From assembly GCA_017535785.1 (NCBI GenBank), contig JAFXTN010000025.1, positions 1 through 64,000 on the forward strand: DNA of 64,000 nt. Direction: 5' to 3'. Below are positions 7,533 to 56,258 of the stretch, in pieces. The number at the start of each line of letters is the position of its first letter. Within the stretch, counting starts at the first letter, position 1. The notes under the pieces were generated by a model. That model made no database searches. It saw nothing but the letters and a program-made list of their open reading frames with translations, and was not told the origin of the DNA. Origin of the DNA: Butyrivibrio sp. (GTDB taxonomy: Bacteria > Bacillota > Clostridia > Lachnospirales > Lachnospiraceae). The position numbers were made by a program, and so were the translations under genes.

Positions 7533-9164
7533 CTAAGCTTCATTCTCGTACGGATTAACCGGCTGTTCCGGCAATCCTCTCTTTGTCAGGATCTGGATCA
7601 CGAGTCTCACGATACCTATCAGTATCAGATATGTTCCAACTGTAATAGATTTACCGTAATTAAGGCGCTGAGGCATAAATAACGTGATTATACCAAGGTT
7701 AAGGTTGATAACGGCAATCGTGATCATCCAGAATATTCCGCCCCTTTTGATGGTATCCTTGTGCTTAACTATAAAGAGCACACTGGCAACCGCAAGGTAA
7801 AAGAAAATAATTGAAACAAGTGCATTGGTCCACTTCGGTATTCTCTCAATATTGGAAAGTATAAAGACCATAAAGCTTAGTACAAATATGTGGAATACCA
7901 TTCGGCCACGCTTAATAAAGGCTTTTTCCTCACGAAGACCGGCTTTAACAAGTCTTGTAGAGCTCCATATCGCAATAGAAAGCGCAACTCCTCCGCCTAT
8001 AAAGTTATAGACAGCCTGCGGTGTGGCAAGGAATATAATACCCAGTAATATAAGAAAGACATCGATGATACCTTGCTGCGTCTTAAGAGCTTCAAGGATC
8101 CTTATCTTCTCGAATTCGCGCCACAGAGAACCGAAGAACTTACCCAAAAGGATCTTGGTCTTGCTCTCAGCTCCCGCTGCTGAAAGGATGATCGTTCCAA
8201 AATCATGGATCCCGCTCTTTGAAATATCTTCAAGCGAAACTGCTCCGCCCGATTTCATCGAATCAAACATATCCTTGGTAAAGGACTTACGCTGTTCCAT
8301 TGTGGCGTTACCGATCCAATCATCAATGACCCTGTTAAGTCCGGCGCTCTCTTCAGTCACATGCTTTTTGGCAACAAAATGGTCGCCCTCAACCTGCCAG
8401 GTCATACCCGAATGCTGCAAAAACTTGCTTGCATCGCTGGCAACGATCTTATGCGCAACTGGCAGTTCAAAGAGCATTCCGACAATACTGTACGTCGGGA
8501 TGATATGAGTAAGCTTCCATTTGATATCTTCAAACTTCTTCATATCGATAAGCTCAGGGCAAAATCCCGGGCCGTCATTGCTGTAGATCTGCTTTATCCT
8601 GTCCTGAACTTCATCGGATATATGCATTGCGGCATAAAGAGCCAGATTACCGCCCTTCGAATGTCCGCCTACATACACATCACCTGAGTACTTATTCAGG
8701 ATATGATTAAGATATTTAACAGCAGCTTTCTGCGCCTTTATCTCTTCAAAGCTGATCTGGAAATCCATTCTCCAGTCATCGATCTCCATCGTGGTTCCTC
8801 TGAACACAACAAACAATGCACCCGGAAGATGCACTGTAAAAGCAGTGATCATCATATCTCTCTCGGTATCTTTGATATCAAGATAGTCGGAAAGACGAAG
8901 CTCACCAAATCTCTTGGAAAATCTCATATAGTAAGGCACCCAGCCAAAGTCTGTCCTAGGCGCACCTTCCATGGGATTATTCTTTATAAACTCTTCGGAT
9001 GCTTTTTTTATGCTGACACTTCCCTCTTCATCCTTACCGGGAACAATCCCGGCAAGATCATTGTAAACAAGAAGAGAAAGCGCAAGATTATCAACTTCGT
9101 TAAAAGGCGATCTTCCAAAAGTCAGATCTCCGCGCCATTTTATATAATTGATCAGATTCGCCAT
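7533..9164 (-). CDS. Mbeg1/DUF2974-type alpha/beta hydrolase with C-terminal membrane helices
   Basis: A 543-residue protein. Residues 1-300 form a lipase-like domain: FRGT (121-124, oxyanion hole) and the nucleophile elbow GHSKG with Ser169. The opening MANLINYIKWRGD and SPFNEVDNL are typical of the DUF2974 family. The C-terminal ~180 residues hold five or so membrane helices ending in a polar tail with Pro and Asn. An esterase or lipase acting at the membrane is likely; substrate unknown. I chose the ATG at 9164 since GGAG lies six bases upstream; a start nine codons earlier has no good site. Confidence 0.78.
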   Translation of the reverse strand: MANLINYIKWRGDLTFGRSPFNEVDNLALSLLVYNDLAGIVPGKDEEGSVSIKKASEEFIKNNPMEGAPRTDFGWVPYYMRFSKRFGELRLSDYLDIKDTERDMMITAFTVHLPGALFVVFRGTTMEIDDWRMDFQISFEEIKAQKAAVKYLNHILNKYSGDVYVGGHSKGGNLALYAAMHISDEVQDRIKQIYSNDGPGFCPELIDMKKFEDIKWKLTHIIPTYSIVGMLFELPVAHKIVASDASKFLQHSGMTWQVEGDHFVAKKHVTEESAGLNRVIDDWIGNATMEQRKSFTKDMFDSMKSGGAVSLEDISKSGIHDFGTIILSAAGAESKTKILLGKFFGSLWREFEKIRILEALKTQQGIIDVFLILLGIIFLATPQAVYNFIGGGVALSIAIWSSTRLVKAGLREEKAFIKRGRMVFHIFVLSFMVFILSNIERIPKWTNALVSIIFFYLAVASVLFIVKHKDTIKRGGIFWMITIAVINLNLGIITLFMPQRLNYGKSITVGTYLILIGIVRLVIQILTKRGLPEQPVNPYENEA

Positions 9165-35656: not shown

Positions 35657-36931
35657 TCAATTAAGAAGACTTCCCTTTACTACGGCATCCTTGCCGAATT
35701 TCTCGGTTATATCATCTGCCATCTTCCCAAGCTTCTTGGCCTTTTCATCCGTAGAAAAAGCCTCATCAAACAGGCTCATCTGCCTATATGAGCCGTCATC
35801 GAGCTTAGAAACGCCAACGCCGACAAGACGCACAACCTCGCCGTATATAAACAGTCCTTCTTCACCAAGAAGGAGCTTGTCTGCAAGATATTTGGCACAT
35901 CTGTAGATCTCAGCCGCATCGCTGGTGGAGTTATCAAGCTGCATCTGGCAGGAATGTCTTTTAAAATTACCGGTCTTTACGGATAAGGTGATGGTCCTTC
36001 CATAGACCTCGTCCCTTCTAAGTCTCCCTGATACCTTTTCAGAGAGATATTTAAGGACCGGCACTATATCTTTATCATATCCATCTGCATTTAGGTCAAA
36101 TGAAAGCGTAGTCTCATTGGAATAGCTCTTGGCTTCCTCATATGTATCCGAAATATGCGAGCTTCCGATACCGTTGGCGCTTGCATATATATAGCTACCT
36201 GCATTCTCTCCAAGTATCCCTGTAAGCATCTCATAATCCGCATTGGCTGCATCACCGATCGTGCGTATTCCAAGGCTTATAAGCCTACTTGCCGTCGATC
36301 CGCCGCATCCGTACAGGTCACCTATAGGAAGAGGCCACATCTTCTCTTCTATTTCATCGGGAAAAAGAGTGTGTATCCGATCGGGCTTAGTAAAATCACT
36401 TGCCATCTTCGCAAGGAGCTTATTGTCGGAAATACCGACATTGACCGTAAACCCAAGCGTATCTCTTATCTCATCCTTGATCTTACGCGCCACACAGATT
36501 GGAAAAGGACAATCGGGAGTTTCAAGGTCCTTGTACATGGATCCGGTCCCCGTCATATCCATATATGCTTCATCTATAGAAACCTGTGCTACAAGCGGAG
36601 AATACTTGCATAATATCTCTATAAAAGCATGTGAACATTCTCTGTAAAACTCAAAGTCGGATCGCACCATGACAAGATTAGGACACTTCTGAAGCGCCTT
36701 AACAACAGGCTCACCCGTCACTATGCCATATTTCTTGGCAGGAATGGACTTTGCCGTGATAATGCCGTGTCTTGTCTTGACATCACCGCCTACCGCCGAG
36801 GGAATCGTCCTAAGATCAACACTCCCCGGCTCATCGCGAAGCATTTTGATCGCAGACCAAGATAGGAACGCGGAATTGACATCGACATGAAATATGAAAT
36901 TGTCATAGTCATAAGCCCTTGTTTTCTCCAT
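35657..36931 (-). CDS. dinB: DNA polymerase IV (Y-family), DinB, SOS-controlled
   Basis: A 424-residue translesion polymerase. HVDVNSAFLSW has the first metal Asp (about residue 16); VSIDEAYMDMT has the catalytic Asp-Glu pair; GISDNKLLAKMASDFTKPD and a little-finger domain follow. I place the start at the ATG at 36931, although no ribosome site precedes it, because a promoter with a LexA box ends exactly six bases upstream, implying a leaderless mRNA; the longer frame to 37003 would run through that promoter. It lies downstream of the pseudouridine synthase gene on the same strand. Confidence 0.9.
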   Translation of the reverse strand: MEKTRAYDYDNFIFHVDVNSAFLSWSAIKMLRDEPGSVDLRTIPSAVGGDVKTRHGIITAKSIPAKKYGIVTGEPVVKALQKCPNLVMVRSDFEFYRECSHAFIEILCKYSPLVAQVSIDEAYMDMTGTGSMYKDLETPDCPFPICVARKIKDEIRDTLGFTVNVGISDNKLLAKMASDFTKPDRIHTLFPDEIEEKMWPLPIGDLYGCGGSTASRLISLGIRTIGDAANADYEMLTGILGENAGSYIYASANGIGSSHISDTYEEAKSYSNETTLSFDLNADGYDKDIVPVLKYLSEKVSGRLRRDEVYGRTITLSVKTGNFKRHSCQMQLDNSTSDAAEIYRCAKYLADKLLLGEEGLFIYGEVVRLVGVGVSKLDDGSYRQMSLFDEAFSTDEKAKKLGKMADDITEKFGKDAVVKGSLLN

Positions 36932-36937
36932 ACCTGT

Positions 36938-36966
36938 ATTATACATCGCACAGATGTTCGAGGCAA
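36938..36966 (-). promoter_or_regulatory. dinB promoter
   Basis: Minus-strand TTGCCT (36966-36961), 17-base spacer, TATAAT (36943-36938). Six bases later comes the ATG (36931), so transcription should start at or next to the A of the start codon. Confidence 0.8.
36947..36960 (-). promoter_or_regulatory. LexA box in the dinB promoter spacer
   Basis: CGAACATCTGTGCG on the minus strand; the Gram-positive LexA (DinR) consensus is CGAAC-N4-GTTCG, one mismatch. It lies wholly between -35 and -10, a position that would block polymerase. Confidence 0.75.
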
Positions 36967-52933: not shown

Positions 52934-54511
52934 TCAGGTCTTGAATATTGTTGAAAGGATTCCTCTTCCGAGACTTGCTCCGAGATTTCCTCCGAGTGTC
53001 TTTCCGAATTTTCCGAACTTTCCACCAAGTCCTTTTCCTACTTCTCTTCCTACAGTACCAACAACTGCGTTACCAACAGTCTTGATCCTCTGTTTCTGTT
53101 TTCTCTTCTCGGCGGCCTCTTCTTTTTCTTTTGCCTTTGCAGCGGCAGCTTCCTCTTTCTCTTTTTCCTTGCGAGCAAGCTCTTCAGCCTTGAGTCTCTC
53201 AGCTTCCTTGGCATCCTCTATGCCCTTTCTCTGAAGGAACTCATAAGCAGAATCAGGATCATGAGCTTCGAAGTACTTGCTGTAAAGTACGCTGCCCTTG
53301 ATCTCTTTATCCCTGACAGAATCGTCGATTCCGCCCATACGGCTCTGAGGAGGTAAGATCTTAACACGCTCACACATTGTAGGTGTTCCGTGCTCATCAA
53401 GGAATGAGCATACAGCCTCACCAGTAGAAAGCTCCTGAATGATATCGGCTGTCTTGAACGCGGGATTCTCACGGAAAGAATCTGCCGCAGCCTTAACCGC
53501 CTTCATATCGGAAGGTGTGTAAGCTCTGAGTGCATGCTGGATCTTATTACCGAGCTGTGCAAGAACTCCGTCGGGAATATCCCTGGGGTTCTGTGTTACA
53601 AAGTAAATGCCTACGCCCTTAGATCTGATGAGCTTAATAACCTGCTCTATCTTGTCCATCAGGATCTTGGGAGCATCTGCAAAAAGAAGGTGTGCTTCAT
53701 CAAAGAAGAATACCATCTTGGGCTTGTCGAGGTCGCCCACCTCGGGAAGTGTCTCAAATAACTCAGACATCATCCAAAGAAGGAATGTTGAATAAAGAGT
53801 TCCGTTGTTGATAAGGCTTGTGCTGTCGAGGATATTGATCATACCCTTGCCGCCTTCGCCTGTTGTGAACCAGTCTCTTATGTTGAGCGCGGGCTCGAAG
53901 AAGAACTTATCTCCGCCTGCGATCTCAAGAGAAACAACCGCACGCACGATAGCAGCAACAGAAACCTTGCTGATATTGCCGTATTCTGCGGCGAACTCCT
54001 TATTGTTGTCAGAAATATATGTAAGCATTGCCTTGAGATCCTTGGTATCTACCAAAAGAAGCTCGTTGTCATCGGCAATCTTAAAAGCGATCGAAAGTAT
54101 GTCTCTCTGAAGATCGTTAAGTCCAAGGATCCTGGACAAAAGAACCGGGCCCATCTCAGAGATCGTTGTTCTGAGCGGAATACCCTTTTCTCCGAATACA
54201 TCCCAGAAAGTTGAAGGATATTTCTGATAATCAAAGCCGGCTTCTTCAAGGCCGAATCTCTGAATACGCTTCTGCATATCCTCGGAATCCACGCCTTCCT
54301 GGACCATTCCGGCAAGGTCTCCCTTGACGTCCGCAAGAAATACCGGAACTCCCATATCACTAAAAGACTCAGCAAGTACCTTAAGAGTTATAGTCTTACC
54401 TGTTCCCGTTGCACCTGCAATGAGTCCGTGTCTGTTAGCCATCTTGGGCAAAAGAAATACATTCTCGCCGCTTTCGTTGTTAGCAACCCATATTTTTCCG
54501 TCTTTTAACAT
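52934..54511 (-). CDS. HerA-like/DUF853 ATPase
   Basis: A 525-residue ATPase of the FtsK-HerA group. Walker A is GATGTGKT (33-40), Walker B is MVFFFDEAHLLF (about 250-261), and YFVTQNPRDIP and LGNKIQHALRAYTP are family segments. After about residue 425 there is a Lys/Glu/Ala coiled coil, then a Gly-rich, basic tail (KGLGGKFGKFGKTLGG). DUF853 members are annotated as helicases or DNA translocases without firm function. AGGAGG precedes the ATG. It is divergent from the Y-family polymerase gene. Confidence 0.9.
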   Translation of the reverse strand: MLKDGKIWVANNESGENVFLLPKMANRHGLIAGATGTGKTITLKVLAESFSDMGVPVFLADVKGDLAGMVQEGVDSEDMQKRIQRFGLEEAGFDYQKYPSTFWDVFGEKGIPLRTTISEMGPVLLSRILGLNDLQRDILSIAFKIADDNELLLVDTKDLKAMLTYISDNNKEFAAEYGNISKVSVAAIVRAVVSLEIAGGDKFFFEPALNIRDWFTTGEGGKGMINILDSTSLINNGTLYSTFLLWMMSELFETLPEVGDLDKPKMVFFFDEAHLLFADAPKILMDKIEQVIKLIRSKGVGIYFVTQNPRDIPDGVLAQLGNKIQHALRAYTPSDMKAVKAAADSFRENPAFKTADIIQELSTGEAVCSFLDEHGTPTMCERVKILPPQSRMGGIDDSVRDKEIKGSVLYSKYFEAHDPDSAYEFLQRKGIEDAKEAERLKAEELARKEKEKEEAAAAKAKEKEEAAEKRKQKQRIKTVGNAVVGTVGREVGKGLGGKFGKFGKTLGGNLGASLGRGILSTIFKT

Positions 54512-54607: not shown

Positions 54608-54636
54608 TTGACTATCAGAACATATGTTTGTATAAT
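54608..54636 (+). promoter_or_regulatory. Promoter of the second Y-family polymerase
   Basis: TTGACT (54608-54613), 17-base spacer, TATAAT (54631-54636). The ATG is at 54643, six bases after the -10, as at dinB. Confidence 0.85.
54617..54630 (+). promoter_or_regulatory. LexA box in the polymerase promoter spacer
   Basis: AGAACATATGTTTG, the consensus CGAACRNRYGTTYG with only the first base changed, filling the -35/-10 spacer. Confidence 0.85.
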
Positions 54637-54642
54637 AAAAAT

Positions 54643-55911
54643 ATGGCAGCTGAAAGAGAAAGAACATATATCTGCATAGATCTAAAGTCTTTCTACGCCT
54701 CTGTAGAATGCGTAGAGAGGAAACTTGACGTTATGACCACGCGTCTTGTCGTAGCCGATCCCGAGCGAAGCGACAAGACTATTTGTCTTGCGGTCTCACC
54801 TGCGATGAAAGCTCTCGGAGTCCCGAACAGATGTCGCGTTTTTGAGATACCCAAGCACATAGACTACATCATGGCGGTTCCGAGGATGCAGAAATACCTC
54901 GATTATTCCGCTCAGGTTTATTCCATATATCTTAAGTACATTTCCAAGGACGATATCCATGTTTACTCAGTCGACGAGGCTTTTATGGACGTCACCGAGT
55001 ACCTTAATCTGTATCACATGACAGCCAAGGAACTCGGTCAGACCATAATCGGCGACATCTACGAGAGCCTTGGCCTTCGCGCTACCTGTGGCATCGGAAG
55101 CAATCTCTTTTTGACCAAAGTCGCTCTTGATATCACAGCCAAGCATGCCAAGGATTTTATCGGAGAACTTGATGAAAAGAGCTATCGAGAGACCCTATGG
55201 GATCACAGACCCCTTACGGATTTCTGGCGCATAGGTCCCGGAATCGCGCGTAAGCTCGAGACCTACGGTATGCTCACTATGAGAGATATAGCACACGGCA
55301 ATGAGAATCTTCTTTATAAGCTTCTGGGCGTCAACGCAGAGCTCCTTATAGACCACGCCTGGGGACGTGAGCCCACTACGATCAGGGATATCAAGGCGTA
55401 TTCGTCCGCGGCACACTCTCTTTCTCAAGGTCAGGTCCTTATGAGCGATTATACCTTCGATATGGGACTTGTCATCGCAAAAGAGATGATGGATATCCTC
55501 TGCCTTGATATGGTCGATAAAGGGCTTGTCAGCAAGTCTTTTTCCCTGATGGTCGGCTACGCCAAAGGCTGCCCACTGCCTGCCGCTAAGGGAACGTTTT
55601 CTTTTGACACAGAGACCAACGCTTCGTTCTTACTTATTCCGGGTATCGCCGACCTTTACAGCAAGATCGTAAACCCGCAGTACAAGGTCCGCCGCATGTA
55701 CGTTGTCGCCAATAATGTCATCCCCGAGGAATACACGCAGTACTCTTTCTTCATGCCCGCGCAGGATCTTGAGAAGGACCGCAAGATGCAGAAGGCTGTC
55801 CTTGAGATCAAGAACAAATTCGGAAAGAATGCGATCCTTAAGGGACTTAACTTCGAAGACGGCGCAACGACCAGAGACCGCAACAATCAGATCGGCGGAC
55901 ATAAAGCTTAG
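54643..55911 (+). CDS. Y-family DNA polymerase of the UvrX/YqjW (Pol V-like) group
   Basis: A 422-residue translesion polymerase. CIDLKSFYASVECVER has the first catalytic Asp (Asp13); YSVDEAFMDVT has the Asp-Glu pair; GIGSNLFLTKVALDITAKH and DFWRIGPGIARKL are typical of the UvrX/UmuC branch as opposed to DinB. The ATG at 54643 has no ribosome site and lies at the predicted +1. YolD follows 12 bases later, as in Bacillus yqjW-yqjX, supporting the group assignment. Expected to be induced by DNA damage. Confidence 0.92.
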   Translation: MAAERERTYICIDLKSFYASVECVERKLDVMTTRLVVADPERSDKTICLAVSPAMKALGVPNRCRVFEIPKHIDYIMAVPRMQKYLDYSAQVYSIYLKYISKDDIHVYSVDEAFMDVTEYLNLYHMTAKELGQTIIGDIYESLGLRATCGIGSNLFLTKVALDITAKHAKDFIGELDEKSYRETLWDHRPLTDFWRIGPGIARKLETYGMLTMRDIAHGNENLLYKLLGVNAELLIDHAWGREPTTIRDIKAYSSAAHSLSQGQVLMSDYTFDMGLVIAKEMMDILCLDMVDKGLVSKSFSLMVGYAKGCPLPAAKGTFSFDTETNASFLLIPGIADLYSKIVNPQYKVRRMYVVANNVIPEEYTQYSFFMPAQDLEKDRKMQKAVLEIKNKFGKNAILKGLNFEDGATTRDRNNQIGGHKA

Positions 55912-55922
55912 CGAGGTAACAT

Positions 55923-56258
55923 ATGCCAAGACAGAAAATGCCAATAGAAAAAAGAGCCGCTCAGTTCCTTCCGTTTCAAGCGGTAAAGGGACTTGACGAA
56001 GCTCTTCTTGCAAAAGAAAAAATAGTTGTACCAAAAATCGAGCTCTCCGAAGAAATGTACGAAGAGCTCGATAAGAAAATGCATAATATCAAAAAGGGCC
56101 GGATCATAACCTGTGTCTATTTCCACAAAGATGAATATCTCAAGGTAACAGGCATGGTTGCGAGGTTCGATGAGATCGCCCGCATCCTTCAGATAGTAAA
56201 TACCAAGATCCCTTTTGAAGATATATTGGATGTCTCATTTGATGAGGATCTGCAATAA
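55923..56258 (+). CDS. YolD-like protein
   Basis: A 111-residue protein of the YolD/YqjX family, characteristic partners of UvrX-type polymerases; start MPRQKMPIEKRAAQFLPFQAVKGLDEAL and C-terminal strand-rich TGMVARFDEIARILQIVNTKIPFEDILDVSF. Role unproven; suggested to modulate the polymerase, somewhat like UmuD. GAGG lies six bases before the ATG, so unlike the polymerase it has a normal ribosome site. Confidence 0.88.
   Translation: MPRQKMPIEKRAAQFLPFQAVKGLDEALLAKEKIVVPKIELSEEMYEELDKKMHNIKKGRIITCVYFHKDEYLKVTGMVARFDEIARILQIVNTKIPFEDILDVSFDEDLQ

Follow-up and report, generated by a model that had tools for sequence, protein, structure and literature searches.

Probable leaderless starts at two LexA-box polymerase genes of Butyrivibrio and their scattered recurrence in the Lachnospiraceae

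The two Y-family DNA polymerase genes, umuC and dinB, in a 64,000-nt stretch of Butyrivibrio DNA (hereafter the window) are likely to be leaderless: a LexA operator would occupy the promoter spacer, the A of the ATG would be the first base transcribed and translation would proceed without a Shine-Dalgarno (SD) site. Should this hold, gut and rumen Firmicutes would control induced mutagenesis at two levels, through LexA and through the architecture of the start codon, and leaderless translation, which is reported to be rare in Lachnospiraceae, would gain a defined set of targets. The layout would also matter for predicting start codons and annotating LexA regulons in these genomes. The window corresponds to C4:1-64000 of a genome of 2.9 Mb in 39 contigs (G000; Butyrivibrio, Lachnospiraceae).

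The plus strand at 54608-54645 reads TTGACT, a 17-bp spacer, TATAAT, AAAAAT and the ATG at 54643 (Table 1), so the arrangement given in the preliminary description, TTGACT-17-TATAAT-6-ATG with a box in the spacer ahead of a Y-family polymerase gene, is confirmed. The pattern TTGACT-N15-19-TATAAT-N4-9-ATG has this one match in the window, as against a shuffle mean of 0.02. Our reference for the operator is the LexA-box consensus CGAACATATGTTCG, a B. subtilis-type box, from which the umuC box AGAACATATGTTTG departs by two mismatches; the umuC and dinB boxes each retain 7 of the 8 core letters of GAAC-N4-GTTC. The umuC product carries an IMS domain (Pfam PF00817, E 1.5e-27), its top NCBIfam matches are Y-family polymerases with scores below the family cut-offs, and its nearest named relative is that of Butyrivibrio sp. 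INlla21 (99% identity). In the Butyrivibrio relatives the ATG lies 6-8 codons ahead of the conserved motif YICIDLKS. The SD energy of the window's umuC, 0.8 kcal/mol, means that an SD is absent. We infer from this layout that transcription starts at the A at 54643. A HerA-like helicase gene with a strong SD (-11.8 kcal/mol) is divergent from umuC, on the minus strand at 52934-54511, and all 14 letters of the umuC box recur on the minus strand of contig C39 of this genome (L078, 1710-1723), upstream of a lipoprotein-like gene.

On the minus strand, dinB is preceded by TTGCCT (36966-36961), 17 bp, TATAAT (36943-36938) and ACAGGT, with its ATG at 36931. The product carries the IMS domain (Pfam PF00817, E 5e-36), and with an energy of -1.4 kcal/mol an SD is again absent. 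The two genes had been described as identical in geometry; the 17-bp and 6-nt spacings are indeed equal, but the -35 letters differ and so does the operator register, the box core ending 13 nt from the ATG in umuC and 16 nt in dinB, that is, 3 bp farther away.

Table 1. Features of the umuC-yolD and dinB loci in the window
Feature	Position	Strand	Remark
-35 element of umuC-type gene	54608..54613	+	TTGACT
LexA-like box of umuC-type gene	54617..54630	+	AGAACATATGTTTG, within 17-bp spacer
-10 element of umuC-type gene	54631..54636	+	TATAAT
6-nt linker of umuC-type gene	54637..54642	+	AAAAAT, pyrimidine at -1
Y-family (UmuC-type) DNA polymerase gene	54643..55911	+	422 aa, without upstream SD
Shine-Dalgarno site of yolD	55913..55917	+	GAGGT
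yolD	55923..56258	+	111 aa, Pfam PF08863
-35 element of dinB	36961..36966	-	TTGCCT
LexA-like box of dinB	36947..36960	-	CGAACATCTGTGCG
-10 element of dinB	36938..36943	-	TATAAT
6-nt linker of dinB	36932..36937	-	ACAGGT
dinB (Y-family, DNA polymerase IV type)	35657..36931	-	424 aa

Both recA and lexA are present in the genome, each with LexA-like boxes. Two scans, one for CGAACATATGTTCG allowing at most three mismatches and one from box to ATG, led to these two genes and to a divergent LysM gene, an HAD-like gene and a gene upstream of uvrB (the HAD-like gene and uvrB were named by eye; Pfam returned no match for the HAD-like protein or for the ORF before uvrB). LexA-box patterns alone were no more frequent in the genome than a reversed control pattern, and single boxes therefore serve only as leads. 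The preliminary description had proposed that the distance from -10 to ATG be scanned across LexA-box genes: umuC and dinB stand at 6 nt, but recA (-9.3 kcal/mol), lexA (-11.1), the LysM gene (-9.2) and the HAD-like gene (-8.6) are SD-led, with the TATAAT of recA 37 nt ahead of its ATG; the ORF before uvrB has a weak SD (-4.2 kcal/mol). The idea that all SOS genes are leaderless was rejected on account of these four SDs, and to judge from the sequence it is the two polymerases, not the whole regulon, that lack leaders. The HAD-like gene is preceded by tandem LexA-like boxes (L079, contig C39, 1685-1731). Within 324 kb of the genome (273 long ORFs, 2063 candidate start codons) an exact TATAAT lies 6 nt before a start in two cases, both at the polymerases; exact TATAAT averages about one match per spacing in the same 324 kb, so the count of two is not significant by itself. 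Because neither the own-genome counts nor the boxes rise above background, the case rests on comparative data.

Among 13 named Butyrivibrio umuC loci, 12 have exactly 6 nt between the -10 element and the ATG. In these 12 the promoter spacer is 17 or 18 bp and the LexA-like box ends 13 or 14 nt from the ATG, and the letters of the linker mostly vary while its length is kept. One of them, L202, has a hexamer at 6 nt (TACTAT) that matches in only 4 of 6 letters and a 5/6 match at 3 nt; L181 and L182 likewise have an additional -10-like hexamer at 3 nt. At the exceptional locus, L185, the end of herA lies codirectionally upstream of umuC and the leaderless promoter is absent.

The dinB gene is more mixed. 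A search of 61 genomes of the genus matched 50, and the best 30 of these 50 loci comprise 14 with a gap of exactly 6 nt (two with TATCCT as the -10), 12 with an SD of -5 kcal/mol or stronger and four with neither. Six of the 12 SD-led genes have a TTG start with the -10 about 55 nt upstream; 12 of the 14 with the 6-nt gap have the box end 16 nt before the ATG, the others (L294 and L303) having no good box. On a tree of 29 distinct dinB sequences the leaderless label changes five times, at least three of these changes being forced by well-supported branches; it is a quick tree, in which the long branches of L303 and L304 meet and may be misplaced. The dinB orthologs within one genus would thus differ in whether they have a leader, which offers a natural experiment. 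For recA, an SD of -6.4 kcal/mol or stronger is present in all 30 loci read (52 of the 61 genomes matched). A looser pattern of box, TANNNT, 5-7 nt and ATG gave 79 listed matches in the genus against about 172 for the reversed control (counted by eye), which is no enrichment; the gap in the 79 was 6 nt in 46, 5 in 18 and 7 in 15, and umuC and dinB were among the genes matched where long ORFs were read, and in these two respects alone the looser pattern agrees with the other data.

Beyond the genus, the combination of LexA box, TATAAT and ATG was sought across 299 Lachnospiraceae genomes and found in 104 rows, against about 50 for the control (control counted by eye). The gap peaks at 6 nt (23 rows), with 6-12 rows at each other gap from 3 to 12. 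We read 49 of the 104 rows, the window's own excluded and 20 fetched stretches having been picked with gaps of 3-7 nt; the ATG opened an ORF of at least 100 codons in 12 of 22 rows at 6 nt vs 2 of 27 at other gaps. These twelve are one umuC, two dinB, seven radical-SAM genes, one recG (L165, genome G087, ATG at 135, behind a LexA-like box, TATAAT and 6 nt) and one 102-aa protein with no Pfam match (L143, G220, ATG at 1527, LexA-like box and TATAAT-6-ATG). The radical-SAM genes with this layout come from seven genera (L129, L137, L141, L156, L158, L159 and L164, all from the pattern search), and the two members tested, L129 and L156, both fall in TIGR03916, a putative DNA modification/repair family; the layout suggests that the protein belongs to the SOS regulon in those seven genera. 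The gene was found in only 1 of the 61 genus genomes at E <= 1e-60 and, being nearly absent, has no bearing on Butyrivibrio itself. A UvrD/PcrA-type gene (Pfam UvrD-helicase; L360, G313, minus strand, ATG at 1503) has a LexA-like box and TACAAT with a 7-nt gap.

Counting named genes, the 6-nt gap is shared by 16 further genera among the family genomes sampled (G005, G019, G023, G047, G049, G070, G087, G088, G100, G129, G171, G184, G190, G232, G244 and G283; the -10 of G184 is weak and its LexA box absent), plus L216. A umuC of G124 with a gap of 4 was left out, since by eye an in-frame ATG farther on is the likelier start. The loci are best-scoring matches, 30 each from 207 umuC-positive, 179 dinB-positive and 162 radical-SAM-positive family genomes, rather than a random draw. 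The same spacing recurs at the radical-SAM repair gene and at a recG. A ribosome site upstream in relatives, which the preliminary description had named as evidence against its reading, is present at the 12 SD-led dinB loci of the genus and, outside the genus, in 60 of 78 umuC and 22 of 29 dinB rows (15 of 25 for radical-SAM). With so many SD-led orthologs, the leaderless design is dispensable, and the best reading is a leaderless architecture that part of the family's LexA regulon has acquired or lost several times.

Rows of umuC, dinB and radical-SAM were pooled, each start being assigned from the SD or from position, with the -10 playing no part in the choice. A -10 matching in at least 5 of 6 letters stands 6 nt from the start in 33 of 66 SD-less starts vs 1 of 110 SD-led ones, and in 31 of 63 vs 1 of 110 once rows that had been added because they showed this gap (L144, L163, L158 and L159) are left out; no such -10 occurs at 4, 5 or 7 nt in either pool. 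The remaining 32 of the 63 SD-less starts have no 5/6 match at 6 nt by the start rule used. The single SD-led case, L296, has GGG one base before the ATG. Ten SD-less rows have a -10-like hexamer at 0, 1, 3, 8 or 11 nt, nine of them besides one at 6. Since the rows are phylogenetically related, nominal Fisher p-values overstate the contrast and are a guide only. Eight of 101 umuC rows had been dropped (four without a start, three duplicates, one without the motif), as had 2 of 60 dinB rows, 7 of 32 radical-SAM rows and 3 duplicates among 30 recA rows.

All 41 linkers at a 6-nt gap (with a -10 of 4/6 or better; 36 distinct) end in T or C. The pyrimidine at -1 is thus found in 36 of 36 distinct linkers vs 145 of 229 SD-led genes of the window's own genome; among SD-led rows it occurs in 34 of 59 umuC, 28 of 35 dinB, 8 of 15 radical-SAM and 15 of 16 recA. 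An invariant pyrimidine at this place would be predicted were the A of the ATG the first base transcribed, and one study of four gut species, a Lachnospiraceae bacterium among them, describes transcription starts with a YR step at -1/+1 in every one (PMC4782308). The -35/-10 spacer is 17 or 18 bp in 40 of 43 rows, a figure helped by a tie rule favouring 17, and several -35 elements share just 2-3 letters with TTGACA. The operator register varies between genes (15-16 nt in dinB, mostly 13-14 in umuC and radical-SAM), yet they share the 6-nt gap; the gap also occurs without a good LexA box at L294, L303 and L117, and the box lies outside the spacer at L034 and L041. L377 shows the gap only at an ATG inside an SD-led gene and was not counted with the 41 linkers, and the ATG-only make-up of the 6-nt cases was not used as evidence because the start rule prefers ATG. 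The proposal that any exact promoter gives a sharp 6-nt peak was rejected: among the matches listed for exact TTGACA/TATAAT followed by ATG (17 of 250 genomes, 146 distinct rows) the counts form a plateau over gaps of 4-8 nt (21, 15, 23, 21 and 20). Taken together, the claim of a leaderless start with a LexA operator and a selected spacing stands as regards the 6-nt gap in umuC, the near mutual exclusion of this gap and an SD, and the pyrimidine, but the design is not universal.

These features can be assembled into a mechanism. Sigma-A-type promoters would read umuC and dinB, and RNA polymerase, with the -10 ending exactly 6 nt before the ATG, would take the first base of the start codon as its own starting point and give an mRNA with no leader. 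The promoter would be blocked by LexA sitting in the spacer until RecA-driven loss of LexA allowed a transcript beginning 5'-AUG, which would then have to rely on leaderless translation (from a 5'-terminal AUG, as reported for 70S ribosomes) with no SD pairing. A review describes 70S ribosomes binding an AUG that stands at the 5' end or close to it, with translation falling as the distance from that end grows (PMC9031893). With SD leaders kept at recA, lexA and other box genes, the polymerases would probably be made at low yield, perhaps under selection for it, and depend on the state of ribosomes and initiation factors. A broader version, which we regard as speculative and rather unlikely, is that DinB, UmuC, the radical-SAM protein (TIGR03916) and occasionally RecG form a leaderless SOS sub-regulon of mutation-prone or hazardous repair enzymes in Lachnospiraceae, in which LexA is joined by a second control through ribosome or initiation-factor state, so that these enzymes would appear little or late and RecA at once.

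The same leaderless mechanism could have another reason: compaction without special function, in which the operator fills the spacer, leaders are lost by neutral deletion and leaderless translation is tolerated where need is low. We give this somewhat less than an even chance. The several changes of state on the genus dinB tree and the many SD-led relatives are what it predicts, whereas the gap of exactly 6 nt rather than 4, 5 or 7, and the constant length of the umuC linker as its letters change, speak against it; a leaderless gene needs the 6-nt spacing to work, however, and for this reason the kept spacing is compatible with a neutral origin.

Two further explanations both appear improbable. 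One has the transcript starting farther upstream, or a different start codon, with the 6-nt gap a coincidence. At the window's dinB there is indeed another ATG in frame, 72 nt farther upstream, that has an SD-like stretch, and in-frame ATG and TTG codons, both lacking an SD, precede its umuC; yet in 41 of 42 cases with the 6-nt gap none of the in-frame starts farther upstream has an SD of -5 kcal/mol or stronger, the N-termini of Butyrivibrio UmuC begin 6-8 codons ahead of the conserved motif, and a near-consensus promoter stands at the umuC ATG. The other holds that this genome has many leaderless starts, in which case a layout shared by two polymerases means little. It draws on the plateau of exact promoters at 4-8 nt and on a glycosyltransferase-like gene (Pfam) of the own genome (L086, minus strand, ATG at 8589) with TACAAT-6-ATG and a weak SD (-1.6 kcal/mol), possibly a non-SOS leaderless gene. 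Against it, few leaderless genes are reported in C. phytofermentans, of the same family (PMC5171806), a start with an SD of -6 kcal/mol or stronger can be assigned to 229 of the 273 long ORFs sampled (a figure inflated by choosing the best of several codons), and exact TATAAT-6-start is confined to the two polymerases in the 324 kb.

The cI transcript of phage lambda made from PRM is leaderless, its promoter abutting the ATG. The promoter at umuC and dinB abuts the ATG likewise; unlike these genes, cI is a phage repressor gene without a LexA operator. A study of D. deserti reportedly found a damage response together with leaderless mRNAs. That combination resembles the present one, with DdrO/IrrE as the regulator there and, here, likely LexA. 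In the table of Zheng et al. 2011 leaderless genes are widespread in Deinococcus-Thermus (PMC3160421), whereas the genes sampled here are mostly SD-led. The leaderless genes of that study likewise have a TANNNT-type signal just upstream of the start and no SD; among Firmicutes they were mainly from Lactobacillales and Mycoplasma, whereas ours are LexA-box repair genes of another Firmicutes family that stand beside SD-led genes (PMC3160421). In C. phytofermentans (Lachnospiraceae) 4% of one start class is reported as potentially leaderless, these generally having another upstream start with a typical RBS (PMC5171806), and about 2-3% is the figure for three clostridia (PMC9045289). The LexA/SOS regulon of C. 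difficile has GAACNNNNGTTY-type operators on repair genes, as here, but the available part of that paper mentions no leaderless layout, and dinB, umuC and yolD are absent from its main text (PMC4234289). A literature search covering few subscription journals turned up no earlier description of leaderless SOS polymerases among Firmicutes.

The gene downstream of umuC is organized differently. The preliminary description had assigned an ordinary ribosome site to yolD, and this proved correct: its SD, GCGAGGTAACATATG, has an energy of -7.8 kcal/mol. At 15 umuC loci checked, the script found no following ORF in three, and the following ORF has an SD of -5 kcal/mol or stronger in 10 and a weaker one in two. 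It is plausible that the yield of yolD is set separately from that of umuC on a shared mRNA.
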